Below, piece by piece: positions 23,901 to 42,839 of a stretch of DNA of 42,839 bases (the first letter of the stretch is position 1; every line of letters begins with the position of its first letter). The translations under genes and the position numbers were made by a program. Source of the DNA: a virus; IMG/VR virus record IMGVR_UViG_3300012928_000010, positions 1-42,839 of that record. One strand, given 5' to 3'. Below the pieces are notes generated by a model that saw only the letters and a list, made by a program, of their open reading frames with translations, was not told the origin of the DNA and ran no database searches.

Positions 23901-26900
23901 TATGCAGAAGGCGATGCAGTAGATAGTTCACTCGCCAGTACCAAAATAGTTGTATACAGAAAAGTTGCAGATCAATATGAATATAGTCAAATTCTTGAAC
24001 CTTTTAATCAGTTTGAAGATTATGGTAGAAGCATAGCTATATCAAATGACGGAAAGAAAATTGCAGTGGGAGCTCCGTTTAATAGTGAACTAGTTCCAAA
24101 CGGTGGTTGTGTATATATCTATGTGCAAAACGGAACAACATTTTCATATAGACAAACCATACGTCCGAGAGATAAACAGCCAAACACACGTTTTGGTTTT
24201 AAATTAGACTTTGACGGAAATACATTAGCAATTACTTCACGTGGCGGTGACTTAGAAAAAGTAACAACATTCGATCAATCTTCAACACAATTTGATAATG
24301 CAAGTACAGAATTTAAATTAATAGACAATGATAGCGGTCTAGTAAGTATATATGAAACAATCAACGATACATTATTGTATGCCCAAGACTTTGCATATAA
24401 TACAGATACGCAAGACTTTGGAAATATCATGCGTGTAAATGATAATCACATTTACTTAGGATTGCCTAAACAACAAGTCAATTTAACAAATGAAATTGAC
24501 AGAGGACTAGTCGCAGAATATAGAAAACCACAAGGTATGACAAACTGGACTATTGCTAGAAGTCCAGTAGATCCTGTAGACACATCAAAATTAAAAGGAG
24601 TATACTTATTTGATAAAACTGATAATAGTTTAGTTACATACTTAGATTACATAGATCCATTACAAGGAAAAATATCAGGCATAGCAGATCAAGAAATTGA
24701 TTTTAAAGTAAGTTATGATCCTGCGAGATATAGTGTCAGCACTATTGATTCTGTTACAGCTTATCCAATGGATTATACAGCAGAAAAATGGATAGGAAAG
24801 ATTTGGTGGGACATCGGAAGTGCTAAATTTATAAACTTCCATCAAGGAGATGTAATTGAATCCACACAAAACTTTAACAAATTATTTCCAGGTTCTGTTG
24901 TAGATGTTTATGAATGGGTAGAGACTACATTACTTCCTAGCGAATGGGATGAACAATCTGGTTCTGAAGCTGGATTAACACAAGGTATTAGTGGTACAAC
25001 AAAGTACGGTGACAGTGCATATAGTGTAAGACGAAGATACGATACAGCTACACAAACATTTACAAATTATTATTATTACTGGGTAAGGAATAAAGCTACT
25101 TTACCGTCAGTTGATACTAGAAGAACAAGTGCATTTGATGTGGCGGCCGCAATATCAGATCCAGCATCAGCTGGTACAAGATTTGTTGCTCCTTTAGGAT
25201 CAAACAGATTTAGCTTGTTCAATTGTGAACCATTCATTAAAGACAAAAATGTTGGTATAAGTTGGAATTGGTGGACTATAGAAAATCAAGAACAAAATAC
25301 ACACAATGAATATCAAATTATAACAGATGGTTTAGAAACAAGCATACCACGTGCAGATTTAGAACAGAAATGGTATGATAGTTTGGTCGGTTTTGACAAA
25401 AACGATAGACCAGTGCCAGATATAAATCTTCCAGTAAGACAAAAATATGGAAACTTAAATGAACCTAGACAATCTTGGTTCGTTAATAAAACTGAAGCTA
25501 GAAAGCAGTTTGTAGAAAGAATTAATAAAACATTAAAAGAAAATTTAATTGTTGATGATAAAGATTTAACAAAACTGACTAGAATAGATCCTTTGCCTAC
25601 AAGTGCAGAAGGAAAGTTTGATACTACTAGTGATAGCTTTGCAGAATTAAATTTTGTAAGTGTTGCTAAAGTTAAACAAGCCAGCCTTACACTAGAAGTT
25701 GAAAATGGTAACATCATAAACGTCATAATAAATGATGGTGGACAAGGATATATTAATCCTCCAACTTACACAATATCCGATACACAAGGAACAGGTTGTG
25801 AACTTAAATTTACACTAGATGCAAACGGTGCTATATCAGATGTTGAAATTGTTAGTGCAGGACAAAACTATACAAATAACGTTTCTATATTAATAAGAAA
25901 ATTCAGTGTCCTTGTGCAAAATGATGAGACAGTTGGTGGTAAATGGGCAATTTTTGAATGGATAGGTACCGAATGGCAAAGAACTCTTACACAAGCATAT
26001 GATGTTAATGCTTATTGGAAATACATTGATTGGTATGCAACAGGATTTAATCAATTTACACCTATATCTTTCCAGCTTTCGTCAAGCTATGAATTATCTG
26101 GATTAGGTGATAACATAGGAGATGTCGTAAAAATAGATAATGTTGGAACTGGCGGATGGTTACTGTTACAGAAAAAAGATAATCAAGAGACAGATGATTA
26201 TTCAATAAATTACAATACGATTGGAAGACAAAACGGTACTATTGAATTTTTGAATAGCTTGTATGATGTAACAAACGAAAATATTGCATATGATGGAGCA
26301 AGTTTTGATAAGATATTCTATGACACTGAGCCTGTTGAGGAATTTAGAGTTCTAATAGATGCAATTAAAAATGATATCTTCATAGATGAATTAGCAGGTA
26401 AATGGAACGAATTATTCTTTGCAAGTATTAGATACGTCTTTGCAGAACAACCAAATGTAGATTGGGTTTTCAAAACTAGCTTCATAAAAGCAAAACACAA
26501 TATCGGCGAATTAAAACAAAAAACTAATTTCCAAAACGATAATTTATCAAGTTACGAAAATTTTGTTGAAGAAGTTAAACCATACAAAACAAAAATTAGA
26601 GAATATCTAAGTTCGTATGAAAAGATTGATCCTTCTTCAACTGTAATGACCGACTTTGATTTACCTCCAGTGTACAATGCAGACGCAGGAAAAATAATTC
26701 CACAGAGTGTTCAAGTGATGGAAAATCAAATTGTTTCAGGAACTTCTGAAATAACAAAATATCCAAGCAAACATTGGGCAGAGAATGTTGGCTTTGAATT
26801 GTTAGAATTGAATATAGCTGATGCAGGTAGCGGTTACTCAATACCACCTCAAATTAAAATTTCCGGCGGAGGCGGCTCAGGTGCAGAAGCAAGAGCTTAC

Positions 26901-29900
26901 ATAGGTACTAATGGCAGGGTTACAACAGTAGAAGTAACTAAATCAGGAAGCGGTTATCTTTCACAACCAAATGTTGAAATTATCGGATCGTTGGAAGAAG
27001 GCGGAACTACTGCTAGATTAAGTCCTGTGTTAGGTAAAGGTAAAGCAAGAGGCATGCATGTAAGATGCAAGTTTGATAGAGTTACTGGAGTATATCTGTT
27101 TAGTAAACTTAATGAAACACAAACATTTACAAGTGTTATTAACCAACAGATATTTAATTTAAAATGGCCTGTTCAACTTAAATCTACAAGAATAAAAGTT
27201 ACAGTTGACGGACTTGATAGTTTACGTAGTGAATATACTTTTGAAAACATTAAAGACACTTCTAAAGGTTACACAAGATATTATGGAAGAATAACTTTTA
27301 CTCTTCCTTTAAGGACAGGTCAAAATGTTATTATAGAATACGATAAAGCACCAGACTTGTTACAAGCACAAGATAGAATTAATCTTTATTATAATCCAGC
27401 AACCGGAATGTATGGAAATGATTTAGGACAAATTTTAGAAGGAATAGACTATGGAGGAGTTGAAGTAAGCAGTTATAGCTTTGGTTCAGGAACTGGTTGG
27501 GATTCAGACGAATGGTTTACAACTACATATGATACTTTTGATACAACATTTGATGATGAAATATTCCAAATGGATGGTAGCACAGAAATATTTAATTTAT
27601 CAAAGCCTTTAGAAAATGGTGTTGTGTACAATGTATATCTGAACGGAACAAGAATTGATGATCCTAATTTTGGAACAAATGCACAAACGAATGCCAATGC
27701 AGTATTACAAAGTATAGTAGGTGCAGGACAAACAACAGTAGAAATTACAAATGATGTACAAAAATTTGTTGCTAATGATGTTGTGGTATTTAGAAAGACA
27801 ACATCAGATGGAGCATTTTTACCTGATCCAAGATCTTATGACACAATATTAAGTGGAGGAGATTTACAATTCTTCACTGCTAAAGGAATCAATCCAGAAG
27901 AGATTATTGTAGACGGAGATGGATTTGTAACACCTACAACATCTAAAGGACCTGAAGAGCAAGTTCCAGGACAAATTTTAGACACTGTAGATATAAGAGT
28001 TTTCCATAGACAAAGCAAAGGTGGAAGTCTATTGTCAAGTAACTCTTATAATGCCGACGGCGTAAATGTAGAATTTGGATTTGGAATACAACCGCAAAAT
28101 AAAGATGGTTTAATTGTTAGGGTAAACGAAATAATACAAAATCAAAAAACATACATTGTTGATTATAGACTTAAAAAAGTTAAATTTAGAACACCACCTA
28201 GTGCAGGAGATTTTATAAACATACTTTCTGTGAGCGGCAACGGTGATAACATTGTAGAGTTTGATGAATTCATTGGTGATGGTTGTTCAGTTCAATATGT
28301 TACAAAGGCTCGCTGGAGTGCTAATCTAGATTATTATGCAACTGTAAATGGCAAGCAGGTAGAATCAGTCTTAATTGCAAGTGATGATAGTGGAGCTGAA
28401 GATACCAAGGCAGTGCTATTCTTTGGTAGTCCACCACCTGATCAAAGTGTTATTAATTTTGCAATCTACAGTAAAATAGATAGTTTCAGTAAATTAGAAA
28501 CGCAAGAATTTACTGGTGATGGATCAACAGTAAACTTTACTCTTGCTAAAACTCCTTACAGTGCAAAACCAAACAGTCATAATGTTATTGTAAAACAAGG
28601 AAATAAAATTTTAAATCCTGGTTACAATCAACAATTTAATGTTGAAGATGGTGTGCGTGAATACTTTTTAGAAATTTGGCAAAGACCTATAGGAAGTTTT
28701 GACAACTCAGACGTGTTGGTATTGTTAAATGGTACTGAATTAAAAATTGCAACTGAATATAATATACGTCCTGCAAATAGTTCTATAATATTAGAACCTG
28801 GAATAGGCACAGACGGAGATAAATTAGAAGTTTATATTAGAACAGATGGGGATTATGCATTTGGTAGTATACAAGTTATAAACAATCAAAACACATGGGT
28901 CGATAGTGGTAATGTATTACAATTAAATACTGCTCCGGCAGAAGGAGAATTGCTGACAGTATATACATTTAACAAACATGATTTCCAAGACTTTGAAAGA
29001 ATTAATTTTGATGTTGTTGCTAGATCAACATTGTCAGTTGGAACCGATGATCATATTCAATACAATCATTTAAAGGCTGGATTAGTTAAATTACGTAACC
29101 CAGCAATAGATGCACAATTTGTTTGGTTGACAGTAAATGGTATTTTGAAAACTCCAAGCGTTGATTATAAATTAACTGATGATAAGAAATTTGTAAAATA
29201 TAATGGAATATTAAATGATAATGACGTAATAGAAGTAATACAATTCAGTGCAACAGGAGCAACAGAACCTAAGTTTGGATTTAGTCAGTTTAAAGATATT
29301 CTTAATAGAAACATATATAAACGTTTAGGTGATGTAGCACCAATCAAACTTGCACAAGATTTACTTGTAACAGACAAAGAAATTGTATTAGATGATGCAA
29401 GCACAATAAGTTCTCCTGATAAAACTAGTAGTGTACCAGGAATTATATTCATTAATGGAGAACGTATAGAATTCTTAATTAGACAGGGTAATACTTTACG
29501 CCAAATACAGCGTGGTACGTTTGGAACAGGTGCACCAGAAGTGCATTTTGCAGGAAGTGATGTATATAACCAAGGTATCCAACAAACTGCTCCATATGCA
29601 GATCAAACAATTACTGATACACAAATAGGTGACGGTTCAACTTCGGTATTTGATCTCGGATTCACACCTAATTCAGTAAATGAATTTGAAGTTTTTGTTG
29701 CTGGTAAACGTCTAAGAAAAACAGAAATTCAGGTATTTGATCCAACAAAAGATCAAGATAGTCCAGAAGCAGATATTACTGCTCCTGCAGAATTCTCAGT
29801 CACAGGTAATACGCCGGCAGTAACTTTGTTAAATACACCAGCAAGTGGTGTTAAGGTACAAATTATACGCAGACAAGGTACAGTTTGGGCAGATCCTGGA

Positions 29901-29972
29901 GTTTCGCTTAATGATTCGGAAAGTTCGGTAGCACGTTTCTTTAAGGCAGAAAAGGTGGAGCTACCAAAATAA
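14964..29972 (+). CDS. 7: Giant gp7-like baseplate wedge protein (5002 residues)
   Basis: One uninterrupted 15-kb frame right after gp6. The N-terminus (LLPRYFRTTANRKFLSSTLD, residues 22-41, then GVIEKVDGFIGRRDAKAFKADDNYL in two parts and EYYAWEPHIDWDKF) matches the start of the very large gp7-position proteins of marine T4-like phages. T4 gp7 has 1032 residues. Embedded modules: a conserved block with RPHTHPWEILGYKLKPDWF (about 1203); four short aromatic modules with Y-x2-GD-x-V-x-Y patterns (about 1508, 1767, 2275, 2872), resembling CBM5/12; FG-GAP-like blades (2191, 2245, 2943, 3018, 3073, 3151); GxGY-type pairs (3592, 3953, 3994); and GDGST-type beta modules (4202, 4362, 4436, 4517, 4888). 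It probably forms wedge arms with adhesive appendages. Virion role likely; direct gp7 equivalence moderate. Confidence 0.75.
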   Translation: MAQDEKPIQTGKDEKREVASLLPRYFRTTANRKFLSSTLDQMMQPGVIEKVDGFIGRRDAKAFKADDNYLSDVSDDRENYQLEPVATITDDLGNNTLYRDYRDYVNSAKIRNADTSNHSLLNSQEYYAWEPHIDWDKFTNFREYYWLPTGPNSIPVYGTARDIESTFKVTKQNNVDNDAYAFSEENIVSNPTLTLYKGQSYTFDINATDMPFSIRTSINVDDDSNLYNEGVSQQKIENGKITWKIDLEAPDSLYYVNGNDIEASGLIIIKNIIDNTFLDVDLDIVGKKTYKMQNGYELSNGMKLEFFGDVSPSKYGEGTWYVEGVGDSIKLIAESDLSVSAGYLSDIKTQFDGQAFDALPFDDALSYTNQKDYIVINKGSKDRNQWSRYNLWTHKSVIETTSAINNTAVTIDQQFRATRPIIEFEAGLKLYNFGTEAKTAVDLVDTVTTDVFSDIEGQVGYFVDGTELVTGMRVLFTADPDSLVNGKIYTVTFINQNGTNQIALKETTDTTPLLNQTVLVKAGTNFRGTIFYYDGTSWKQGQNKTGINQAPVFDLYNDAGTPLSSLEGSTFAGNKIFSYKTGVGSNDTELGFPLSYRTIENSGDITFDFNLLNDTYQYDVLTDVLTVKTDTALLRKYTARTTFSSVSGWKKAPMLSEQPVVLQYVSGPRTNNFIIDCYLRSGDLNDLKVKIYVDNVRMYDTTDYTIFRQNGYAYIKFNTDLQLNQKVVIESTSATSKNHRGYYKFPINFEKNPMNENVVDFTFGEVLDHVSSIVDNVNDFTGSFPGVGNLRDLGPVSQFGLRFVQHSGPINLALFNLTSKDYNMIKAIEYSGREYIKQKREFLRIANELGFESDDKTHVDKILLELTKTRGTKDPFYFSDMIPFGGDTVQEYEIEDTSQTIFNLTRTVSFTNLNENAVLIYLNLEQLIKDKDYTLSTDGFVTITTNIKAGDKIKIVEYETTDGCWIPPTPTKLGLYPKYQPQIFLDDTYISTIPDSTGPYKIYGIDSTTTKGYKNKLGWFYPLFTDETSAQAFDKNNGGTGLAHTHKFDGHNRIFFMPNSSMSHATGDTIEYPEWEVAKPVLQGHDGSIWRCFGDFRDKLLLEYEKRIYNNLKISYDENVIDLADFIETDFRPTGFTRKNISKVIISEFNAWLETVGVPDYSTNKVFTRGNSFTYNYSYFGNPYNKPLPGFWRSIYKDIFNTDRPHTHPWEILGYKLKPDWFDDVYGPAPYTRNNNLLWQDLSKGIVREPNKKIVYRNKFKNSDILKYIPVDKNGDLLSPAEIGYAQGGVDSTYGIDFRFGDEGPVETAWRRSSHYPFALVKAWSLLQPAQYFGLAFDRSRIARNEADQLVRTDTSKRIELSTLQFPNSANDQNRVLTAGLVNYMQGYLSANETLRFNEYSNKLKRIENKLGCKIGGFTQKNKFRLILDSRTPTNEGNIFIPEENYNIVLTKSVPTNVYSYSGVIVEKLPRGFKVSGYDKDSPTFKTYPVLKKATDQVVNIGGISENFLTWSTGKVYEPGQVVDFKGTYYRVKIGHTSSDAFNTDNFQQMADLPTEGGANATFATNFDNEIFEVSYGTVFPEIQDVVDFMLGYQEYLQSSGFIFDTYNKTLQEIENWKLSCKEFMFWTTQNWGEGAVLTISPSARQIAFTNPFAVVDDIYDNFYDYSLLKADGKRLLADFATTERDTTNDFGMYVKNTQEGIYHLKIPTVQTEHAIIIDNQTVFNDKIYTRPQGYRQERIKVKGYKSDGWNGGLNVPGFIFSDATVYEWTAWQDYKIGDLVKYKQYFYVANRNIAGSSVFNDRAFVLLNGKPKSELLPNFDYKAKQFEDFYDLDSDNFDIEQQKLAQHLIGYQKRKYLENIIPDDVSQYKFFQGMIQDKGTKNVLTKLFDKLGSINKDSIEFFEEWAVRVGRYGATEGTDTFEVLLDESKYRLEPQTVELVDVVPPQDTSLVYKIDRNNVYVKSKNYDHKPLPTKYFNDDNIFVPSAGYVNPTDVYTSILNYSQLKDQDITTLQAGSYIWTALEKDQINWAVYKYMATDLKVQSVTGTQNDVFQLTLNNEPDFEIGDVIGIKDVNDETDGFYTVNKIQLNVLSLDSTDSISDSTADYTGEGFLTKYKKVRVSNLTEANENIKDGGITPFSLTGSSAAGQTIWVDDDDTGKWIVLKSKQVYELKPNILNTTAGLLDSTQKDFGSSVSVSQDNNTVAITAPKDLNGSVYVFTRPSDNTELGLLQQIDEQAFLYDSNGGFGTSVSITPDGKYLAIGSPNASNVKSKLKGDYVNTEAYASGDIVLYSDQLWRAKRNVTADAIQTFESHASNQQSISDDYNAETSQYPEIVFMMRGNYSMPTEATDHVLIRAEKEQWEGTKPGDKLTLKWNQFTTTSAGGVLPFNGDPILNANFFNGQHIIVGKVKMVVEIVSALATPDVGDEITTDTARAKVQYRFIDNDNRLILYLNDVNGQLETSGTILQNNITIGTYNAVNHIADNYHTGWWYINVGTSFNSTNLQETKPNLVVQNITLEGDTTNDPAFTNILDTKQSEDIVNNPTRASYYAVLSHQQGATEINLLDSRWVIRTELAHGNSLTVGDKFRTWINDIYVSGVRQDPSAIGLDYTYVNNTEHTIADIWNGWVDVRLTNFDLNGDPFLPNIGDIVTDTATGSTAEVAYIQRSFAIARFWLKNRNGTWSRGSDFSEPSNCTFIENDSTVRTVGPINNTHVENNLSGPLLVVDKGSNIEIPTGNSFIQDTEYWIYSSNTIQGISDSANPPGALNLDWTRVYNIPLNSSGYTAASDMDAQGTFAIYEKRGATYQLINYYTVPNARSGRRLGNKVEFRQIDADTYKLFVHAKGDGTEHNQGRIYFVEKNATEDWSLGIERKYKGFHRTSAVYFEGDLVRFGNEIYEANTNTIPGAFNLALWTRKTSGLDLLGYVPNDTNFSISESVLEQNKLEAFGENFDVSKSADVLIASSMYTSQYQIDSTDGTLLYAEGDAVDSSLASTKIVVYRKVADQYEYSQILEPFNQFEDYGRSIAISNDGKKIAVGAPFNSELVPNGGCVYIYVQNGTTFSYRQTIRPRDKQPNTRFGFKLDFDGNTLAITSRGGDLEKVTTFDQSSTQFDNASTEFKLIDNDSGLVSIYETINDTLLYAQDFAYNTDTQDFGNIMRVNDNHIYLGLPKQQVNLTNEIDRGLVAEYRKPQGMTNWTIARSPVDPVDTSKLKGVYLFDKTDNSLVTYLDYIDPLQGKISGIADQEIDFKVSYDPARYSVSTIDSVTAYPMDYTAEKWIGKIWWDIGSAKFINFHQGDVIESTQNFNKLFPGSVVDVYEWVETTLLPSEWDEQSGSEAGLTQGISGTTKYGDSAYSVRRRYDTATQTFTNYYYYWVRNKATLPSVDTRRTSAFDVAAAISDPASAGTRFVAPLGSNRFSLFNCEPFIKDKNVGISWNWWTIENQEQNTHNEYQIITDGLETSIPRADLEQKWYDSLVGFDKNDRPVPDINLPVRQKYGNLNEPRQSWFVNKTEARKQFVERINKTLKENLIVDDKDLTKLTRIDPLPTSAEGKFDTTSDSFAELNFVSVAKVKQASLTLEVENGNIINVIINDGGQGYINPPTYTISDTQGTGCELKFTLDANGAISDVEIVSAGQNYTNNVSILIRKFSVLVQNDETVGGKWAIFEWIGTEWQRTLTQAYDVNAYWKYIDWYATGFNQFTPISFQLSSSYELSGLGDNIGDVVKIDNVGTGGWLLLQKKDNQETDDYSINYNTIGRQNGTIEFLNSLYDVTNENIAYDGASFDKIFYDTEPVEEFRVLIDAIKNDIFIDELAGKWNELFFASIRYVFAEQPNVDWVFKTSFIKAKHNIGELKQKTNFQNDNLSSYENFVEEVKPYKTKIREYLSSYEKIDPSSTVMTDFDLPPVYNADAGKIIPQSVQVMENQIVSGTSEITKYPSKHWAENVGFELLELNIADAGSGYSIPPQIKISGGGGSGAEARAYIGTNGRVTTVEVTKSGSGYLSQPNVEIIGSLEEGGTTARLSPVLGKGKARGMHVRCKFDRVTGVYLFSKLNETQTFTSVINQQIFNLKWPVQLKSTRIKVTVDGLDSLRSEYTFENIKDTSKGYTRYYGRITFTLPLRTGQNVIIEYDKAPDLLQAQDRINLYYNPATGMYGNDLGQILEGIDYGGVEVSSYSFGSGTGWDSDEWFTTTYDTFDTTFDDEIFQMDGSTEIFNLSKPLENGVVYNVYLNGTRIDDPNFGTNAQTNANAVLQSIVGAGQTTVEITNDVQKFVANDVVVFRKTTSDGAFLPDPRSYDTILSGGDLQFFTAKGINPEEIIVDGDGFVTPTTSKGPEEQVPGQILDTVDIRVFHRQSKGGSLLSSNSYNADGVNVEFGFGIQPQNKDGLIVRVNEIIQNQKTYIVDYRLKKVKFRTPPSAGDFINILSVSGNGDNIVEFDEFIGDGCSVQYVTKARWSANLDYYATVNGKQVESVLIASDDSGAEDTKAVLFFGSPPPDQSVINFAIYSKIDSFSKLETQEFTGDGSTVNFTLAKTPYSAKPNSHNVIVKQGNKILNPGYNQQFNVEDGVREYFLEIWQRPIGSFDNSDVLVLLNGTELKIATEYNIRPANSSIILEPGIGTDGDKLEVYIRTDGDYAFGSIQVINNQNTWVDSGNVLQLNTAPAEGELLTVYTFNKHDFQDFERINFDVVARSTLSVGTDDHIQYNHLKAGLVKLRNPAIDAQFVWLTVNGILKTPSVDYKLTDDKKFVKYNGILNDNDVIEVIQFSATGATEPKFGFSQFKDILNRNIYKRLGDVAPIKLAQDLLVTDKEIVLDDASTISSPDKTSSVPGIIFINGERIEFLIRQGNTLRQIQRGTFGTGAPEVHFAGSDVYNQGIQQTAPYADQTITDTQIGDGSTSVFDLGFTPNSVNEFEVFVAGKRLRKTEIQVFDPTKDQDSPEADITAPAEFSVTGNTPAVTLLNTPASGVKVQIIRRQGTVWADPGVSLNDSESSVARFFKAEKVELPK

Positions 29973-34552: not shown

Positions 34553-36022
34553 ATGGCGTACATAATAAATTTAACAAATGGCACACAGTTAACTTCGGTT
34601 GAAGATGGAACTATCGACCAAAGCACAACGCTTAAATTAGTTGGTAAAAACTATGCTGGTTATGGTGAAATACAAAACGAAAACTTCGTCCATTTGCTTG
34701 AGAATTTTTCAAGTGCAAACCAACCTGCAAGTCCTTTGTCAGGACAGATTTGGTTTGATAGTGCAGTAAAAAAACTAAAATTTTACGACGGAACAAAATT
34801 TAGAACAACAGGCGGAGCGGAAGTATCCACTACACAACCAGTTGGACTTACAACTGGAGATTTTTGGTGGGATACCAATAACAATCAGTTATATGCACAA
34901 AACGCAAATGGTGGATTTGTCCTAATCGGTCCACAGTCCATAGGTGAAACAGTTTCTGCAATGGTTACAAGTATTGTACGCGACAATAACCAGGTAAACA
35001 GAACTATAATCAAAGGTACAGTTGATGATGGTGTTGTATTCATTATAAGTAATGCAGAATTTACAATTGATGCTACAGATCCAAGTAATGTTATTACAGG
35101 ATTTGATGTTGTAAGACAAGGTTTAACACTAAGAAACACAACAGCGGCTACAAATGGTGTAACAGCAACAGCTCACAGATTCCATGGTACTGCTACAAAC
35201 GCAGAAAGATTAAATGGTTTGCCTGCAAGTGATTATGCATTGGCAGGAAGTGCAAACTTTACAAGTATCACAAGATTTGCTGACGCAGGTTTTACAGTTG
35301 GTGCGGCAAATGACCTTGCTGTGTTTATTACCAACGGTGATGAAGGTGTAATAGAAAATACTGTTGGAACAAAAATTAGATTAAAGGTAAGATCAAGTGG
35401 AGGAGTTGCAACTGAACCATTCCATATTCAAAGTGTAGGATTAATTCCAACAACTACTAACACATTTGATATTGGTGATGTAAACTTCAAGTTCAGAAAT
35501 ATGTATGCTACTGCATTTAATGGATTAGCAACTAACGCAATTAACTTACAAGTTGGTTCTAACTATAGAACAGGTGACGTAAGTGCAACAAATAATACTG
35601 TAGCAGTAAGAGATTCAAGTGGTAATTTAGCGGCAAACGTTTTCAATGGTATATCTACACAAGCAAGATACGCTGACTTGGCAGAAAAATATACAACTGA
35701 TAAAAATTACCCTGTAGGAACACTAATGATGATAGGTGGAGAAGCTGAAGCAACTGCATGTGAAGATGAACATGGTATTTGTATTGGAGTAATCAGTACA
35801 AAACCTGCTTACTTAATGAATTCAGAAGCCGAAGGACAAGCCGTAGCGTTAGTCGGAAGAGTGCCAGTGCGTATAACAGGTCCGGTAAATAAAGGGGAGC
35901 CTGTACACGTTGCTAAAAACGGTACAGCAAGTGTTGATGGAAGCGGAGACATGATTGGTATTGCCTTAGAAAGCAATGACAGGCACGAAGAGACATTAGT
36001 TGAATGTATTTTGAAGTTATAA
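34553..36022 (+). CDS. Tail fibre-like virion protein, third paralogue, with DLAEKY-type C-terminal domain
   Basis: A 489-residue paralogue with the shared start (MAYIINLTNGTQL, GYGEIQNENFVHLLENFSS, SPLSGQIWFDS, GDFWWDTNNNQLYAQ). The shaft includes NTFDIGDVNFKFRNMYATAF. The C-terminal domain (about 372-489) begins YADLAEKYTTDKNYPVGTLM and contains GVISTKPAYLMN, VALVGRVPVRITGPV and IGIALES. This pattern is common at the ends of phage tail and fibre proteins; I recognise it but cannot assign an activity. The gene has its own exact late promoter, so its dose can differ from the two coupled paralogues. Confidence 0.75.
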   Translation: MAYIINLTNGTQLTSVEDGTIDQSTTLKLVGKNYAGYGEIQNENFVHLLENFSSANQPASPLSGQIWFDSAVKKLKFYDGTKFRTTGGAEVSTTQPVGLTTGDFWWDTNNNQLYAQNANGGFVLIGPQSIGETVSAMVTSIVRDNNQVNRTIIKGTVDDGVVFIISNAEFTIDATDPSNVITGFDVVRQGLTLRNTTAATNGVTATAHRFHGTATNAERLNGLPASDYALAGSANFTSITRFADAGFTVGAANDLAVFITNGDEGVIENTVGTKIRLKVRSSGGVATEPFHIQSVGLIPTTTNTFDIGDVNFKFRNMYATAFNGLATNAINLQVGSNYRTGDVSATNNTVAVRDSSGNLAANVFNGISTQARYADLAEKYTTDKNYPVGTLMMIGGEAEATACEDEHGICIGVISTKPAYLMNSEAEGQAVALVGRVPVRITGPVNKGEPVHVAKNGTASVDGSGDMIGIALESNDRHEETLVECILKL

Positions 36023-36036
36023 AATAAGGAAGTAAG

Positions 36037-36951
36037 ATGGCAGTAGGCGATACAATTACCGCGGCGAGATATAATATTATCAGAGCAAGGATAGCGGCTG
36101 TTCTAGGAAAAGGAGCAGGTGACGAAGGTTATGGACAAGCAATTACAAGTCAAACAGTAAGTGTCGGTGCTACAGTAACAGCACAGGACATGGCAAATTT
36201 GTTTGTTGATATTAATAAATGTAGAGTCCATCAAACAGGTAACGCAGTTACTGAAATAGCACAACCATCGATAGGCGATACTGTAGAAGATTCAAACACA
36301 ACTACAAAAGAAGGTTATGTGCAATATGAAGATTTAAGTATCACTGCTCAATCAGCAAGGTTAAACTTTGCATCCAATCAAGTAGGAATTGAATCAGGAG
36401 AAAGCAGTTCAAGAACAGCAGACTGGGCAACTGATATTAATCATATTGTTACTGTAACATTTCCAGGATATAGTGTAACTAATGGTGACGGAACTACAAC
36501 TGCAATGACAGGCGAAGATCATATGCGTGTATTTTTTAATGCAGGTGGTGCAATACTTTTCAGAGGAACAATTGGATCAGGTAATACTACAATTAATAAC
36601 GACTGGCGAAACTTAATGACTTCGGTTGGTACTGTAACTTTTGATAGAGATAATACAAGTAATGGTTCTGTAGGAACTAGTTTTGGTTTTGTAAACTTAC
36701 CTACAGGTTATACCACAATATTCAATAAGACAGCATCTGCTTATAGTGCAAACGACTATCTTATTGAAGGCAAGAAAAACGGAAATGTGCTTTCATTTAG
36801 AATAACATTTAACGAAGATAAAGGACCAAATCCAAATTTTGACGAAGCTGTAACAGCAACTACAGGAAGTATAGTTGAATGTAAACGTCCAAACAATATA
36901 AATTCCGTAAACATTGGCAAGCCAACTTTCAATACAACAAACAACCTATAA
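36037..36951 (+). CDS. Virion structural protein, unassigned
   Basis: A 304-residue protein of a type common next to tail-fibre genes in marine T4-like phages. Visible landmarks are MAVGDTITAARYNIIRARI at the start, a central GEDHMRVFFNAGGAILFRG and a strand-rich C-terminal half ending Asn/Thr-rich. No catalytic motif, signal peptide or membrane segment is apparent. AAGG (36026-36029) lies seven bases before the ATG. It follows the third paralogue by 14 bases and is probably co-transcribed with it. A fibre accessory or baseplate decoration is likely, but the function is unknown. Confidence 0.6.
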   Translation: MAVGDTITAARYNIIRARIAAVLGKGAGDEGYGQAITSQTVSVGATVTAQDMANLFVDINKCRVHQTGNAVTEIAQPSIGDTVEDSNTTTKEGYVQYEDLSITAQSARLNFASNQVGIESGESSSRTADWATDINHIVTVTFPGYSVTNGDGTTTAMTGEDHMRVFFNAGGAILFRGTIGSGNTTINNDWRNLMTSVGTVTFDRDNTSNGSVGTSFGFVNLPTGYTTIFNKTASAYSANDYLIEGKKNGNVLSFRITFNEDKGPNPNFDEAVTATTGSIVECKRPNNINSVNIGKPTFNTTNNL

Positions 36952-36952
36952 T

Positions 36953-36960
36953 ATTAAATA
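36953..36960 (+). promoter_or_regulatory. Possible late promoter (ATTAAATA) for the glycosyltransferase cassette
   Basis: ATTAAATA matches the late consensus at six of eight positions, two bases after the preceding stop. Predicted start is near 36966, with GGAG (36973-36976) seven bases before the next ATG. No other late box is visible in the downstream cassette. Confidence 0.45.
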
Positions 36961-36983
36961 GTAGTGCTTAATGGAGTATTACT

Positions 36984-37319
36984 ATGGATGAAAAGCTAGA
37001 AAAAGCTCTTGGTTTTTCTAATTTAGCAACTATTTTGAACAACCAAAAACGGATTCTAAAAGAACAGTATGATGAAGAATTGGTTTTTTATCATGCTGGC
37101 GGTAAGTTCAAAGCAGACCGAACTTTGTTTTCTTTTGTATGCAATCTTGACAGTGAAGATGCTGTAATTATAGATGAAAACAGTGTACCAGTCAAGATTG
37201 AAGTAGAAGAATTTAAAAATTTAGTAAAGTCTCATTACACAACAGCTAGTGATAATTTTCTCAGCAGATATAAAGCGATTAGCAACAAAAGAAGTGTTGA
37301 AGGTATAGTGGATGTCTAA
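36984..37319 (+). CDS. Small conserved hypothetical protein
   Basis: A 111-residue acidic, mainly helical soluble protein beginning MDEKLEKALGFSNLATILNN. It has a mid-protein strand (DAVIIDENSVPVKIEVEEF) and a helical end (LSRYKAISNKRSVEGIV). I recognise the pattern from marine T4-like phages, where it is uncharacterised. It overlaps the next gene by eight bases, so it heads the glycosyltransferase cassette. No function can be assigned. Confidence 0.6.
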   Translation: MDEKLEKALGFSNLATILNNQKRILKEQYDEELVFYHAGGKFKADRTLFSFVCNLDSEDAVIIDENSVPVKIEVEEFKNLVKSHYTTASDNFLSRYKAISNKRSVEGIVDV

Positions 37320-38118
37320 TGGCGTTTTATGTTTTGCTAACAATAATGAAATCAATTATATAAAGCAAGCTGAACAGTTAGCAATTCGAATCAAAAAATA
37401 CATGGGACTTCCTACATCGTTATGCACGTCAGATCAATATTCTAACAGTGGTAAAATTTTTGATAAGATAATAAAATTAAAAGAAGGCCAACCTAACAAT
37501 AAAAGATATTACGATACAGTTGACTTTAAAACTTTAAACTTCAAAAATTACAGTCGTTGTAAAAGTTATGATCTATCTCCATATGATAAAACATTAGTTC
37601 TTGATGTTGATTACATTATTACAAACAATAAATTATCTGATGCATTTATTAATGGGGATTTTAAAATTTACAGACATGGAGTAGATTTATGTCCATGGAG
37701 AAAATACAAAGAGTTTGATTTCATAAACGATAAAGGAGTTCCTTTTTATTGGGCAACATGTTTTTACTTTGTAAAAAATCAAGAGCATAAGATTTTCTTT
37801 GATCTTCTAAAACACATAAGTGAAAATTGGAATCATTACAAAATGGTATACGATATAGATGCAAGAAATTTCAGGAATGATCATCTTTTCAGTATTGGAA
37901 TACACATGATGAACGGATTTGAAGATAATGACTGGGCAAAACCTATGCCAGGAAAAATGTACTACACTCTTGATAGAGATGAATTAATTGAAATTGATAA
38001 AGAAAAATTAAAGTTCTTACTAGAAAAAGAACATACTCGTAACGAGTATATTTTAGGTTCGATACGTGATGCAAATGTTCATGTCATGAATAAATTTAGT
38101 TTGGAAAGATTACTATGA
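37312..38118 (+). CDS. GT-A-fold glycosyltransferase-like protein (GT8-like), copy 1
   Basis: A 268-residue protein with a nucleotide-sugar transferase layout: an N-terminal strand-helix unit (GVLCFANNNEINYIKQAEQL), then SPYDKTLVLDVDYII, where D98-x-D100 is the metal/UDP-sugar-binding DxD motif. Downstream are PFYWATCFYFV and a C-terminal VHVMNKFSLERLL, whose His could be the third metal ligand as in GT8 enzymes. It has no membrane segment. The start lies within the end of the previous gene, and its end overlaps copy 2 (ATGA). Donor, acceptor and target are unknown. Confidence 0.6.
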   Translation: MSNGVLCFANNNEINYIKQAEQLAIRIKKYMGLPTSLCTSDQYSNSGKIFDKIIKLKEGQPNNKRYYDTVDFKTLNFKNYSRCKSYDLSPYDKTLVLDVDYIITNNKLSDAFINGDFKIYRHGVDLCPWRKYKEFDFINDKGVPFYWATCFYFVKNQEHKIFFDLLKHISENWNHYKMVYDIDARNFRNDHLFSIGIHMMNGFEDNDWAKPMPGKMYYTLDRDELIEIDKEKLKFLLEKEHTRNEYILGSIRDANVHVMNKFSLERLL

Positions 38119-38927
38119 CAAAAGGATATGTAATGATAGCATCTGGGAAAGATTATGTAAAACAAGCGTGTCTATGTGCAATGTCAATCAAACTGACACA
38201 GAAAATACAGAATGTTTCAATTATAACAAATGATACAGTTGAAAAACAATTTGAAAACCTGTTTGATCATATAATTGAGATACCTTGGCATGAAGAAACA
38301 GTTTGTTTTTATGACACACAGAATAGATGGAAAGCATATCACGTAAGTCCATATGAAGAAACTATTGTTTTAGATACAGATATGTTATTTTTAAGTGATC
38401 TATCACATCACTGGGAAATATTTAATAGATACGATGTTTGCCTTGTTGAAAAAGTTAGAACATACAAAAATGAAACAGTAACCGATGATTACTATAGAAA
38501 AACTTTTACAGAAAATAATTTACCAAATGTGTATAATGCATATCAATATTTTAAAAAGAATGACAACAGTTTGGAATATTATAAAAATTTAAAACATATT
38601 GTTAGGAACTGGCAATCATATTACAAAGAATACCTGCCAAAAAATACACCTAGGTTAGATAGTATGGATGTTAACCATGCTATATGTATGATACACAATA
38701 ATAATAACAATTATAAAACGTCTAGTATTGATTTTGTTCATATGAAATCTAAAATACAGAACGTGGATTGGCAACAAGATAGTTGGGTAAATGAAATACA
38801 ATACTTTGTTGGAGATGATTTAAAGATAGGAAACTATAAACAACATGGACTGTTCCATTATGTAGATAATAATTTTTGTAATACAGTGTTTGAAACTTAT
38901 AAGGAAAAATACAATGCAATTAGTTGA
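38115..38927 (+). CDS. GT-A-fold glycosyltransferase-like protein (GT8-like), copy 2
   Basis: A 270-residue paralogue of the preceding protein with the same order of elements: KGYVMIASGKDYVKQACLCAMSIKLT in two adjoining parts, then SPYEETIVLDTDMLFLSDL with D87-x-D89 as the DxD motif, and a late FVHMKSKIQN carrying a candidate metal-binding His. Sequence is well diverged from copy 1 outside these motifs, so the pair probably has different substrates. It begins with an ATGA overlap and its end overlaps the next gene by 14 bases. Confidence 0.65.
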   Translation: MTKGYVMIASGKDYVKQACLCAMSIKLTQKIQNVSIITNDTVEKQFENLFDHIIEIPWHEETVCFYDTQNRWKAYHVSPYEETIVLDTDMLFLSDLSHHWEIFNRYDVCLVEKVRTYKNETVTDDYYRKTFTENNLPNVYNAYQYFKKNDNSLEYYKNLKHIVRNWQSYYKEYLPKNTPRLDSMDVNHAICMIHNNNNNYKTSSIDFVHMKSKIQNVDWQQDSWVNEIQYFVGDDLKIGNYKQHGLFHYVDNNFCNTVFETYKEKYNAIS

Positions 38928-39432
38928 AGTAGCAGTTTCCACACAACAATATGTAAATTATGATAAGAAGACTGGAGAAGTAAAATCAGTTGGGCCTAAC
39001 AAGGATTTAGACTATAGTAGCATTGAAGTATCTGAAAAAGAAATAGAACCGATTACGTCATTGAAAGAAACAATGTCTGATTACGCAGTTGTGCTTAATA
39101 CAAAAAAACAAAGATATGAATTACGAAAAATCACTTTAGATTTAGAACAGGATTTTCCTTTTGTAGAAGTAAAAGAAAACGATCAAGCAGACTTATTCTT
39201 AGTCATTGACAGAATTAATAAAACGTGTTACATAAAATTAAAAGAAGGTTTAGAAAATTTAATAAAAGAAAGACTAGCATTTAGTATTACTAAAAAAGGT
39301 GATCCTCATATGTTGTACACACATTTAAATTTTGATACACAAAAGCAACAAACGTATAAGTTTACTCTTGATAATTTTAGTGTATACACAAATTGTCTTA
39401 CAATAGACTGTGGAGTGAAATATGAAACTTAA
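38914..39432 (+). CDS. Hypothetical protein within the glycosyltransferase cassette
   Basis: I place the start at the ATG at 38914 (172 residues), which has AAGGA (38901-38905) eight bases upstream; an in-frame ATG at 38890 is possible but has no good ribosome-binding site. The protein begins MQLVEVAVSTQQYVNYDKKT. It is rich in charged residues and predicted strands (YAVVLNTKKQRYELRKITLD, ADLFLVIDRINKTCYIKL). No catalytic motif, signal or membrane segment is seen. I do not recognise the family. It is sandwiched by overlaps between transferase-like genes. Confidence 0.6.
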   Translation: MQLVEVAVSTQQYVNYDKKTGEVKSVGPNKDLDYSSIEVSEKEIEPITSLKETMSDYAVVLNTKKQRYELRKITLDLEQDFPFVEVKENDQADLFLVIDRINKTCYIKLKEGLENLIKERLAFSITKKGDPHMLYTHLNFDTQKQQTYKFTLDNFSVYTNCLTIDCGVKYET

Positions 39433-40324
39433 TGTCGGCGAAATAGATATAATATATCTTAGTTATGATGAACCAAATGCAGAACAAAATTATACAGACT
39501 TGTTAAGCAAGGTTCCTTGGGCAAAGCGTATACATGGAATAAAAGGATCAGATGCCGCTCATAAGGCCTGTGCAGAACTTTCAGAAACAGACAGATTTGT
39601 TACAGTAGACGGCGACAATACAGTAGATCAAAATTTTATTAATCAAGTTCTTGAATTCGATCCAAAGGAAAATTTAGAGAATAGTGTTATAAGTTGGTGT
39701 GGAAAGAATACAATTAATGGTTTGGTTTATGGAAACGGTGGGCTTAAATGTTGGCCAAAACAATACGTGTTGAATATGAAAACACACGAAAACGCAGACA
39801 AAGAAAACATAAACGCACAAATAGAATTTTGTTGGGACGCCAGATATGTACAGATGGCAGATTGCTTTAGTAATGTACATAACAATGCAACACCTTACCA
39901 AGCCTGGAGAGCAGGTTTTAGAGAAGGAGTCAAACTAGCATTAAATAGAGGAGCACGTATTCCAAAGGAGCAATTTTTAAAAAGCCATCAAAAAAATTTA
40001 GCCATGTTGTATATTTGGTGCATGGTGGGAGCAGATGTCAAAAACGGTTCTTGGGCCATATATGGAGCAAGGGAAGGCTTGTTCATGACAATGTGTAGTG
40101 ATTGGGATTATGTTAATGTAAGAGACTTTGATTGCTTAAATGAATTATGGGGAGGAAGAGACGAGCTTCCTGAAGATGTATTACATAGTGAAATTTTTAA
40201 TTTAGGTAATCAACTTATTGATAAACTTGAAATACCAATTGCAGTACAACCTCTTAATGAAGAACAAAGCAATTTTTTTAAAAGCGTAAATGATAGTACA
40301 GTTAGGAAAAACAATTACAAATGA
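39422..40324 (+). CDS. Glycosyltransferase-like protein with EPNAEQNY signature, copy A
   Basis: A 300-residue soluble protein. The N-terminus DIIYLSYDEPNAEQNYTDL resembles the first strand-helix of a GT-A fold. It is followed by RIHGIKGSDAAHKACAEL and FVTVDGDNTVD, where D63-G-D65 acts as a DxD-like motif. The C-terminal half has KNTINGLVYGNGGLKCWPK and a Trp-rich helical region (YQAWRAGFREGVKLAL). A shorter paralogue lies just after the radical SAM gene. Such proteins recur in marine T4-like phages, where to my knowledge they remain uncharacterised. GGAG (39412-39415) is six bases upstream. The transferase call rests on fold-like motifs only. Confidence 0.55.
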   Translation: MKLNVGEIDIIYLSYDEPNAEQNYTDLLSKVPWAKRIHGIKGSDAAHKACAELSETDRFVTVDGDNTVDQNFINQVLEFDPKENLENSVISWCGKNTINGLVYGNGGLKCWPKQYVLNMKTHENADKENINAQIEFCWDARYVQMADCFSNVHNNATPYQAWRAGFREGVKLALNRGARIPKEQFLKSHQKNLAMLYIWCMVGADVKNGSWAIYGAREGLFMTMCSDWDYVNVRDFDCLNELWGGRDELPEDVLHSEIFNLGNQLIDKLEIPIAVQPLNEEQSNFFKSVNDSTVRKNNYK

Positions 40325-41670
40325 CCAGTCCAGAAAAAGTAAAAGAAAAACTGAATCAAGTTGGACCAGGATTTTGTCTTGCAAAGTGGACACAGGTAAC
40401 TATTCATTTGGGTTCAGGAATAAATCATAGCTGTCATCATGTAAAAGCACATGCTATTCCTCTCAAAGAGCTGAAAGATAATCCAAACGTATTGCATAAT
40501 ACACAATTTAAGAAAAACACAAGACACTTGATGTTGCAAGGCGAACGCCCTAGTGAATGTGACTATTGCTGGAGAATAGAAGATAACACAGAAAATTTTA
40601 GTGATAGAATATACAAAAGTGCAGATGATTGGAGTTGGCCAGATTTTCATAAAATAAGAAAAGCTAATGCCCAAGAAGATTTTTATCCTAGGTATGTAGA
40701 AATAAGTTTTTCAAATGTGTGTAATTTTAAATGTGGGTACTGTGGTCCTGCATTTAGTAGTAAATGGGGAGATGAAATAAACAGGCATGGACCATATAAC
40801 TTTAAAGGACTCAGTTGGAAATATAATCAAATAGATGAATATCAAAAACAGATTCCTGAACGTGAAACTAATCCTTACATTGAAGCTTTTTGGAAATGGT
40901 TTCCAACAGCAGTAAAACACATGCATACTTTTAGAATTACAGGTGGAGAACCTTTAATGAGCAAACATACAAATAAAGTTTTAGATCATTTATTAGAAAA
41001 TCCACAACCAAATTTAGAATTTGCTGTAAACAGTAACGCATGTCCTCCTGGAAACAAATGGAAAGATTTTGTTAAGAAAATTAAAACTTTAGAGGATAAA
41101 AAATGTATTAAAAGATTTACATTGTTTGTAAGTGCAGAAAGCATGGGGGAACAAGCTGAATATAACAGATTTGGAATGGACTGGGATATGTTTTCTAAAA
41201 ATGTAAATTACTATTTAGAAAATACAAAAGCAGTTTGCGTCTTTATGAGTGCGTTCAACATATTAAGTTTTCCAACATTTTTTCCTTTTGTAAAGTATGT
41301 AGGAAATTTAAAGTACAAATTCAAACCTAGAATTTGGCTCAGTATTCCTTATGTAAGAAATCCTGGATTTTTAGATGCTAAAATTGCAACGAAACCTATG
41401 GTAGAAAAATACCTTTATCCAGCATTAAGTTACATGAAAGCAAACAAGGCAGTATTTGATAAAAAAGAAACTCAAGACTTAGATAGGATTATCAATGATT
41501 TAGAAACAAGATTTAAAAAACCAAACGAGTTTGGTACTATTGCACAGGAAAATAGAAGAATGTTTATTGAATGGATTGTTCAATATGATAAAAGGCGAGG
41601 AACTAAATTTCATAAAACTTTTCCTGAATTGCACGAATTTTGGTTGGAGTGTAAAAAATGTATGATATAA
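40321..41670 (+). CDS. Radical SAM enzyme with N-terminal accessory Cys motif (twitch/SPASM-like)
   Basis: A 449-residue protein with the radical SAM cluster motif C134-x3-C138-x2-C141 (SNVCNFKCGYCGP), which binds a [4Fe-4S] cluster and S-adenosylmethionine. The following RITGGEPLM (GGEP at about 208-211) is the SAM-binding GGE motif. The N-terminal part has INHSCHH (C38) and SECDYCW (C80, C83), resembling the auxiliary-cluster region of twitch/SPASM proteins but placed before the SAM domain. Substrate unknown; relatives modify peptides, sugars or RNA. It overlaps both neighbours, which are paralogues of each other, hinting at a joint pathway. The radical SAM call is secure. Confidence 0.85.
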   Translation: MTSPEKVKEKLNQVGPGFCLAKWTQVTIHLGSGINHSCHHVKAHAIPLKELKDNPNVLHNTQFKKNTRHLMLQGERPSECDYCWRIEDNTENFSDRIYKSADDWSWPDFHKIRKANAQEDFYPRYVEISFSNVCNFKCGYCGPAFSSKWGDEINRHGPYNFKGLSWKYNQIDEYQKQIPERETNPYIEAFWKWFPTAVKHMHTFRITGGEPLMSKHTNKVLDHLLENPQPNLEFAVNSNACPPGNKWKDFVKKIKTLEDKKCIKRFTLFVSAESMGEQAEYNRFGMDWDMFSKNVNYYLENTKAVCVFMSAFNILSFPTFFPFVKYVGNLKYKFKPRIWLSIPYVRNPGFLDAKIATKPMVEKYLYPALSYMKANKAVFDKKETQDLDRIINDLETRFKKPNEFGTIAQENRRMFIEWIVQYDKRRGTKFHKTFPELHEFWLECKKCMI

Positions 41671-42362
41671 TCTTTATATCTTATAATGAACCTAATGCTG
41701 AACAAAACTACAGTAATCTCTATGGCAGGTTCAATTACACTGGGACATTAGGAGCCAAAGTAAAAAGAGTTGATGGAGTAAAAGGAATACATCAAGCTCA
41801 TGTTAAAGCGGCTGAAATTGCAAACACAAATTATTTTTATGTAGTTGACGGTGACGCTGTAGTTGATTTAAATTTTAAATTTAATTTTATTGTACCTACA
41901 CCTTTGACAGATAAAGATAGGAATGAAAGCACAGTGTTCGTATATAAAAGTGTAAATCCTATTAATGATCTAGTATATGGTTACGGAGGTGTTAAAATAT
42001 TACCTAAACACAAAACACTAAAAATGGATATAAACACAAATGACATGACAACAAGTATATCAAAAAATTTTAAAGTTATAGACACAATATCAAATATTAC
42101 TGCATTTAACACTGATCCTTTTAACACATGGAAAAGTGCATTTAGAGAGTGTGCAAAATTAGCAAGTAAAACAATTGAAAGACAAAACGAGGAGGAAACA
42201 AATGAAAGACTCAAAACTTGGACAACCGTGGGACACGATAGACAGTATGGCGAATATGCTTTGGCAGGCGCTACCGCTGGTATGGAGTTTGGCTTTTCTC
42301 GGAGGACTGATCTTCGGCTGATAAACGACTTTGATTGGTTAAAGGAACAATTCAATGCTTAA
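41658..42362 (+). CDS. Glycosyltransferase-like protein with EPNAEQNY signature, copy B
   Basis: A 234-residue paralogue of the 39422 gene, sharing DIIFISYNEPNAEQNYSNL, RVDGVKGIHQAHVKAAEIA, FYVVDGDAVVD (D64-G-D66) and NPINDLVYGYGGVKILPK. It is 66 residues shorter, mainly through loss of the Trp-rich helical extension of copy A. The ATG lies inside the end of the radical SAM gene with GGAG (41646-41649) eight bases upstream, so expression is coupled. Activity unproven. Confidence 0.55.
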   Translation: MYDIIFISYNEPNAEQNYSNLYGRFNYTGTLGAKVKRVDGVKGIHQAHVKAAEIANTNYFYVVDGDAVVDLNFKFNFIVPTPLTDKDRNESTVFVYKSVNPINDLVYGYGGVKILPKHKTLKMDINTNDMTTSISKNFKVIDTISNITAFNTDPFNTWKSAFRECAKLASKTIERQNEEETNERLKTWTTVGHDRQYGEYALAGATAGMEFGFSRRTDLRLINDFDWLKEQFNA

Positions 42363-42839
42363 TATAGTTGTAACAAGTAAACCTGTAGATGGATTGTTTT
42401 ATTATAGTTATGAATATTGTTCATATCTTAATAGCAAAGGAATAAAGGCAAGAGTTATAGTTATCACACACAGAAATTTTACTCAACAAGATTATCTTAA
42501 CGTGTTAAAATACAAATACATACACCAACATAATGTTCTGTTTAATTCATTAGACGGTTGGACAGGTGACGCTACACTAATTATGGGTAGGAGTATGATG
42601 ACTCTCAGTTACCAAGACTTTGATAGTTACACAATTCAACAGCAAATGATTCTTAGAACCTTGTTTGGTGGCAATTTAATAAGCGTGTATTCGGAAAATC
42701 ACCCTGCAAAATATCCTTTGGCTGTAAAATTTTATGATCCTGCAAAGATAGTTGACTTATGTGATAAACAAGTATATCCAGAAGGCGTAGGTATACATTT
42801 TGAAAAAACAATTAATTTTGAAATATATAAACCACATAA
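42355..42839 (+). CDS. Hypothetical, possibly GT-B-like protein, cut by window edge
   Basis: An ATG at 42355, inside the end of the preceding gene and eight bases after AAAGGA (42341-42346), opens a frame that continues past the right edge; 161 residues are visible. It begins MLNIVVTSKPVDGLFYYSYE, then CSYLNSKGIKARVIVITHRNF, which looks like the first strand, glycine turn and helix of a Rossmann or GT-B N-terminal domain. The domain that would bind a nucleotide sugar is out of view. Operon position supports a role with the neighbouring transferase-like genes. Confidence 0.55.
   Translation, partial: MLNIVVTSKPVDGLFYYSYEYCSYLNSKGIKARVIVITHRNFTQQDYLNVLKYKYIHQHNVLFNSLDGWTGDATLIMGRSMMTLSYQDFDSYTIQQQMILRTLFGGNLISVYSENHPAKYPLAVKFYDPAKIVDLCDKQVYPEGVGIHFEKTINFEIYKPH

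Follow-up and report, generated by a model that had tools for sequence, protein, structure and literature searches.

The 42,839-nucleotide stretch of viral DNA analyzed here (IMG/VR virus record IMGVR_UViG_3300012928_000010, positions 1 to 42,839; "the window") ends in a cassette of eight overlapping genes whose first five members, A to E, form a block of constant order. The cassette (36984 to 42839) consists of eight same-strand open reading frames (ORFs), A to H, each of which overlaps the next by 4 to 14 nt. A (36984 to 37319, plus strand like all the others) encodes a 111-amino-acid (aa) conserved protein and is the first gene of the constant block. It is followed by B (37312 to 38118; 8-nt overlap with A) and C (38115 to 38927; 4-nt overlap with B), which encode predicted GT8-like glycosyltransferases; by D (38914 to 39432; 14-nt overlap with C), which encodes a hypervariable protein predicted to fold as two all-beta domains; and by E (39422 to 40324; 11-nt overlap with D), a putative GT2-like glycosyltransferase of GT-A fold. 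F (40321 to 41670; 4-nt overlap with E) encodes a twitch-domain radical S-adenosylmethionine (SAM) enzyme, G (41658 to 42362; 13-nt overlap with F) is a paralogue and partner of E, and H (42355 to 42839; 8-nt overlap with G) runs past the window end. For D, we have taken the ATG at 38914 as the start, and a TTG at 38890 is also possible. A preliminary description of this DNA, made from the letters alone, had proposed a cassette overlapping end to start with no late box inside. All of the genes that it named are present, every neighboring pair overlaps, and no TATAAATA late box starts any gene within the block; the exact TATAAATA at 34517 and the AATAAATA at 29968 serve tail genes.

The constancy of the block was assessed in locus samples made up of the best 80 matches of each search, which biases them towards near relatives. 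With A as the anchor, all 79 loci carry B-C-D-E onward to the limit of the contig, and 72 of them are complete. When loci are anchored on E, exactly A-B-C-D is found upstream in 71 of the 81 that have enough upstream room, and most of the exceptions differ by one unlabelled ORF. An independent anchor in the tail region, the 203-aa protein P203 (29994 to 30605), leads to A in 48 of the 54 loci that extend 9 kb or more downstream; among the others, four end short of the point at which their kind carries A (compare L063 to L066), and L252 and L260 are clearly without A. The sample is diverse, with 97 different A proteins at 95% identity and 54 at 70%, and the overlaps are conserved, with a median spacing of -8 nt for A/B, B/C, C/D, and D/E. 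The genes after E vary: most often a single F-type radical SAM gene or several of them come next, in some loci G follows directly, and in others there are different genes. Several tandem F-type genes are seen in L105, L112, and L027, in bacterial and viral contigs. Only A to E is constant; F and G are common but not fixed, and the later genes come as variable additions. Thus, of the single co-conserved block that had been proposed, A to E stands, being kept together across phage contigs beyond chance, but F, G, and the later genes do not belong to it.

B and C match no Pfam family. A joint profile of the two, compared with the PDB, matches glycogenin (GT8) with an E value of 4e-4 over ~110 N-terminal positions, which are the nucleotide-binding part. 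In an eight-sequence alignment, D98 and D100 (the DxD motif) and a C-terminal histidine, H257, are invariant, and the DxD is kept in 117 of 117 B and 113 of 119 C members. C is a diverged paralogue of B (E value of ~1e-6) and also matches phrog_1903 at 1e-6, a PHROG without an assigned function. With the DxD and the histidine kept and the profile match confined to the N-terminal part, B and C are probably GT8-like.

E and G are paralogues of each other (phmmer E value of ~1e-31, ~30 to 34% identity). Their DxD residues, D63 and D65, are invariant in the alignment, and DGD or DAD is found in 119 of 119 E and 61 of 61 G proteins. The AlphaFold2 model of E, built from a shallow nine-sequence alignment, has a predicted template modeling score (pTM) of 0.79, and a Foldseek search with it returns WrtF, ThuS/SunS, RmlT, and PBCV-1 A64R with E values of 1e-4 to 1e-3 and probabilities of 0.97 to 1.0. 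The template modeling (TM) scores to these matches are only ~0.3, which supports the fold class but no specific activity. The model therefore supports a GT-A fold of GT2-like type for E, a fold that it would share with PBCV-1 A64R, WrtF, SunS, and RmlT, but sequence identity to PBCV-1 A64R and the GT2 enzymes is 9 to 12%, and their donors and acceptors are not transferable to E. E has no match to Pfam Glycos_transf_2 above the cut-off, and 2 of 22 G members match this family at best with an E value of 0.005, below the cut-off. Direct annotation of A, D, E, and G with Pfam, PHROGs, and NCBIfam gives nothing convincing. Homology of E to B and C was considered and dropped, since profile comparison gives no link outside the DxD region. 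The transferase motifs of B, C, E, and G agree with the "two DxD GT8-like proteins" and "two EPNAEQNY/DGD proteins" (E and G) of the preliminary description, and on the structural side the top PDB matches of the E model are glycosyltransferases.

E and G also tend to occur together. Two E/G-type proteins are present in 14 of 15 long contigs, one near E and one more distant, and the distant one is G-type in all nine regions inspected. In L207, E and G are fused as a single 535-aa protein directly after D. In L204, L205, L206, L208, L209, and L212, G carries N-terminal arrays of ~100-aa degenerate transferase-like repeats; these are shortened G modules without the DxD, and the open frame reaches up to 858 aa.

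The two remaining proteins of the constant block are less easily placed. A belongs to no PHROG or Pfam family above noise. The AlphaFold2 model of D, with a mean predicted local distance difference test (pLDDT) value of 90.7, shows two beta domains, and its matches are weak FN3/immunoglobulin-like PDB entries (E value of 0.02) and otherwise only uncharacterised viral proteins. Mean pairwise identity is 26% for D, the lowest in the block, compared with 33% for the adjacent tail protein and 62% for E. As modelled, D is a hypervariable all-beta protein and not an obvious enzyme. The adjacent tail-type protein (304 aa; 36037 to 36951, plus strand) lies immediately 5' of A in nearly all relatives. 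By a hydropathy check, the only test applied for this feature, none of the cassette proteins has a strongly hydrophobic stretch of the membrane type, which suggests that the chemistry takes place in the cytoplasm.

F passes the NCBIfam model NF033640 (N_Twi_rSAM) with 313.4 bits against a cut-off of 170 over residues 17 to 440, and so belongs by score to these twitch-domain radical SAM proteins. C134, C138, and C141 (CxxxCxxC) and the N-terminal residues Cys19, Cys38, Cys80, and Cys83 are invariant in the alignment, and the CxxxCxxC is present in 152 of 152 F members; family match and motif together confirm the radical SAM enzyme that had been noted inside the cassette. To our knowledge, no reaction is known for the NF033640 subfamily. 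On two marine contigs binned as bacterial, F homologues lie between GT7 galactosyltransferases, nucleoside diphosphate (NDP)-sugar epimerases, and deoxythymidine diphosphate (dTDP)-sugar isomerases, which ties this F subfamily to sugar pathways.

The window could be extended to the right by means of a 99%-identical contig, L004, which completes H (L004 12035 to 12889, 284 aa) and shows the genes beyond it. H has a homologue in pelagiphage Mosig and no Pfam match; by motif only, it is a possible GT-B-type transferase, and it is the first gene of a putative downstream sugar-tailoring module. On L004, the genes 3' of H start with two separate ones, for a radical SAM half (215 aa) and for a SPASM half (112 aa), followed by a DegT/DnrJ aminotransferase (286 bits); next come a nitroreductase, a second radical SAM gene, a carbamoyltransferase, a second nitroreductase, and a methyltransferase-like protein. 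Beyond this module lie SGNH-type genes on the opposite strand. The 215-aa radical SAM half, the methyltransferase-like protein, and the SGNH-type genes were named by reading of the sequence, Pfam giving no match.

Upstream of the cassette lie baseplate and tail genes and a gene for a 5002-aa structural protein, with sbcC/sbcD and a late sigma factor gene on the opposite strand. P203 is 54% identical to its counterparts in Sinorhizobium phage Phosso and Agrobacterium phage Atu_ph07, which are jumbo phages of 470 to 490 kb (Atu_ph07 is a cultured relative), and the gene order around it agrees with theirs. By this identity and gene order, the window phage is an uncultured relative of the Atu_ph07/Phosso jumbo phages and not a typical marine T4-like phage. 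Nor is the locus the VrlC-gp14 island of T4-like phages (Kyanoviridae): in a comparison that covers the tail-protein side, the tail protein is nearest to that of Phosso and Atu_ph07, at 54%. The preliminary description had members of the cassette recurring in marine T4-like phages. A tblastn search with A, B, and E against 50,697 phage records gives zero matches, and a nucleotide search of sequenced phages gives a single 150-bp match, to Mosig, so that this claim fails for the cassette genes A, B, and E and holds only for the downstream H module, of which the H, radical SAM, aminotransferase, and carbamoyltransferase genes match Mosig. IMG/VR searches, on the other hand, give more than 500 relatives each for A and for E among the matches listed, which makes these genes a common feature of a lineage without a cultured member in the records searched. 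A paper on moraphages describes Bacteroidota jumbo phages with several core glycosyltransferases, a lineage that need not be the present one.

The leader of A differs from those of the neighboring genes. In 61% of 108 distinct A leaders we find TTGACA-N16-18-TATAAT with at most one mismatch, compared with 4% of shuffled leaders even when two mismatches are allowed. The same sigma-70 promoter precedes B, C, D, and the second to fourth genes upstream in 0% of cases, E in 19%, and the gene just upstream of A in 9%; the gene two upstream of A has an exact TATAAATA in 30%. When A proteins are clustered at 80% identity, 45 of 72 clusters have the sigma-70 promoter, compared with 0 of 66 two genes upstream. 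In the window, perfect sigma-70 promoters lie ahead of the late sigma gene and sbcD, which indicates that this type of promoter here marks genes outside the late tail operon. The window clade itself has no sigma-70 promoter before A and has another shared leader (TAAATAGTTATAC...). In another subgroup (L071, L073, L076, L082, L083, L086, and L088), the sigma-70 promoter before A is replaced by a shared motif, AGATAATTACTTG. In most loci (~100), the A leader can form a hairpin at the ribosome site, with a mean minimum free energy of -6.8 kcal/mol and a mean z score of -1.45, compared with mean energies of -2.1 to -3.4 kcal/mol for leaders of other genes. In the window (leader, 36942 to 36983), positions 36960 to 36969 are predicted to pair with 36974 to 36983, covering the Shine-Dalgarno GGAG. 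In many relatives the hairpin overlaps the -10/start region, and the dyad is kept while the sequence varies; it could act in translational control or as an operator. Promoter and leader together suggest early or separately controlled expression in most relatives, a pattern that is compatible with virion and host targets alike and does not decide between them.

The corresponding place in Phosso and Atu_ph07, which follows the giant structural protein, the 203-aa protein, and a tail protein, is occupied by a different cassette (L122, 22653 to 30802, in Phosso; L121, 23424 to 31073, in Atu_ph07). It is equivalent in its genomic position beside tail genes, but it contains no convincing A-to-G homologue. 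Instead, it has four radical SAM genes (three SPASM-type by profile), a cupin-like protein, and a 296- to 306-aa protein, and its radical SAM/SPASM enzymes resemble peptide maturases. The C terminus of the 296- to 306-aa protein, CHxSCHASCHxSRSRR, is nearly unchanged between the two phages, while the whole protein is 46% identical, which makes it a candidate for a radical-SAM-modified virion protein. It is seen only in these phages: a search of viral contigs for this protein gives a single match, in a 490,380-base record as long as Atu_ph07, and in the marine loci we find no Cys/His-repeat C terminus of this type. Homology between it and the 304-aa tail protein was also tried and is not detected (hhalign probability of 0.1). 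In the Atu_ph07 paper, virion proteins are clustered in coding sequences (CDS) 170 to 215; counting from gp181 in the gene order of the record, CDS 170 would be the 296-aa protein. A radical SAM/SPASM cassette around such a protein suggests that the site serves virion-protein modification.

Taken as a set of enzymes, four putative transferases, a radical SAM enzyme, and sugar-tailoring genes are probably best read as a machinery for glycan assembly. We favor, tentatively, the fuller reading that the cassette is a cytoplasmic glycan assembly operon with a tail protein as the acceptor. The computed results give the gene order and its conservation, the transferase fold and motifs, the radical SAM family, the E-G fusion, and the promoter pattern; enzyme activity, a single pathway, and a virion-protein target are what we infer. 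B and C and the GT-A pair E/G would add sugars sequentially; F and H, with the aminotransferase, carbamoyltransferase, nitroreductase, and methyltransferase-like genes, would make or tailor an unusual sugar; and the acceptor would be an adjacent tail-module protein, either the 304-aa tail protein or D itself. A tail-protein acceptor is favored because of the fixed position after the tail genes, the lack of evident envelope-export genes, and the parallel in Atu_ph07 and Phosso. Several points weigh against it. The constant position beside tail genes could reflect a common insertion site; B/C and E/G get no Pfam family above the cut-off; glycosylation of a tail protein is a prediction only; and A is driven in most relatives by a sigma-70 promoter like the early genes of the window, with no late box. 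In addition, distances for the tail protein correlate weakly with those for the cassette, and not with D in particular, and the idea of tail-cassette co-evolution was dropped for this reason.

The promoter pattern also fits well with the main rival reading, in which the operon would act early in infection on a glycan of the host surface (lipopolysaccharide or capsule) and so block the adsorption of competing phages, or of progeny to debris. The sigma-70 signal before A and its absence from B, C, D, and the second to fourth genes upstream fit this, as do the perfect sigma-70 promoters before the late sigma gene and sbcD, and the authors of the pelagimyophage study prefer O-chain modification for the GT8 genes described there (PMC7029224). 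We consider a host-surface target somewhat unlikely, with no flippase, polymerase, ligase, or membrane-anchored transferase evident in the cassette (by hydropathy only), with the linkage to tail genes constant, and with the window clade lacking the promoter. A peptide target is less probable still: F and its neighbors would be a maturation system like those for ribosomally synthesized and post-translationally modified peptides (RiPPs), with the transferases adding sugar to the peptide in the manner of glycocins. SunS and ThuS, which are peptide S-glycosyltransferases, are indeed among the nearest folds to E, and radical SAM/SPASM maturase-like proteins do occupy the corresponding place in Phosso and Atu_ph07, but SunS and ThuS rank among many GT2 enzymes, the marine loci have no Cys/His-repeat tail, and F falls in N_Twi_rSAM and not in a peptide-maturase family.

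It is very unlikely that the genes have nothing in common but a promoter and an insertion site next to the tail genes, without forming a single pathway. F, G, and the later genes vary freely, as this would predict, but A to E are invariant in all of the A-anchored loci, and E and G are fused in one relative. Hypermodification of phage DNA by the transferases and the downstream carbamoyltransferase (e.g., 5-hydroxymethylcytosine plus sugar or carbamoyl) appears more improbable again. Phage DNA carbamoyltransferases exist (eLife 2021, PMC8670742), and the downstream module has a carbamoyltransferase; however, the same study pairs the DNA-modifying enzymes with thymidylate-synthase homologues and places others beside glycosyltransferases. 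A member of the thymidylate synthase/dCMP hydroxymethylase family is found in only 1 of 15 long contigs and not in a 262-kb one, which speaks against a DNA target, though provisionally, since the contigs may be incomplete.

If the glycan assembly operon with a tail-protein acceptor is combined with the Atu_ph07/Phosso parallel, a broader but doubtful proposal follows, in which the tail-adjacent site of Atu_ph07-related jumbo phages would serve in general for modifying virion proteins after translation, in two branches. One branch would use radical SAM/SPASM enzymes on the CHxSCH-tailed protein; the other, aquatic and uncultured, would use the A-to-E/G glycan operon, with G often bearing repeat arrays without the catalytic motif and with the radical SAM enzyme remodelling the sugar. 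If true, it would amount to a new type of phage tail modification.

The kind of locus is already known. In pelagimyophages, tail-adjacent islands of GT8 transferases with radical SAM cassettes have been described, with O-chain modification proposed (PMC7029224), and the pelagimyophage/cyanomyophage host recognition cluster resembles the present locus as a variable island beside tail-fiber genes with GT8-type transferases and radical SAM cassettes. It differs in that the present locus has a fixed A-to-E block, that A, B, and E are without matches in sequenced phages, that E and G stay below the cut-off in Pfam, PHROGs, and NCBIfam, and that the lineage is Atu_ph07-like and jumbo. Glycosylation of mycobacteriophage virions by phage-encoded glycosyltransferases has been reported (Freeman et al. 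2023, as cited in PMC12619734); insofar as that citation describes it, the hosts and phage type are different, whereas the system considered here involves radical SAM enzymes. In the literature searched, we found no paper uniting radical SAM, jumbo phage, and glycosyltransferase, and no published function for the cassette. The word "undescribed" in the preliminary description is therefore apt for these genes but too broad for the locus, given the pelagimyophage islands; the fixed A-to-E/G block, its protein families, and its lineage appear to be the new part. Should tails be what the operon decorates, it would account for some of the diversity in receptor binding among aquatic jumbo phages and would be a source of new transferases and new radical SAM chemistry; should it be hosts, the operon may serve in superinfection exclusion.

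Two features of the upstream tail region may be added. The 5002-aa structural ORF (14964 to 29972) is the positional counterpart of the ~4450- to 4555-aa proteins of Atu_ph07 and Phosso, and the tail protein encoded at 34553 to 36022 has a C-terminal match to the autoproteolytic domain Peptidase_G2 just under the Pfam cut-off.

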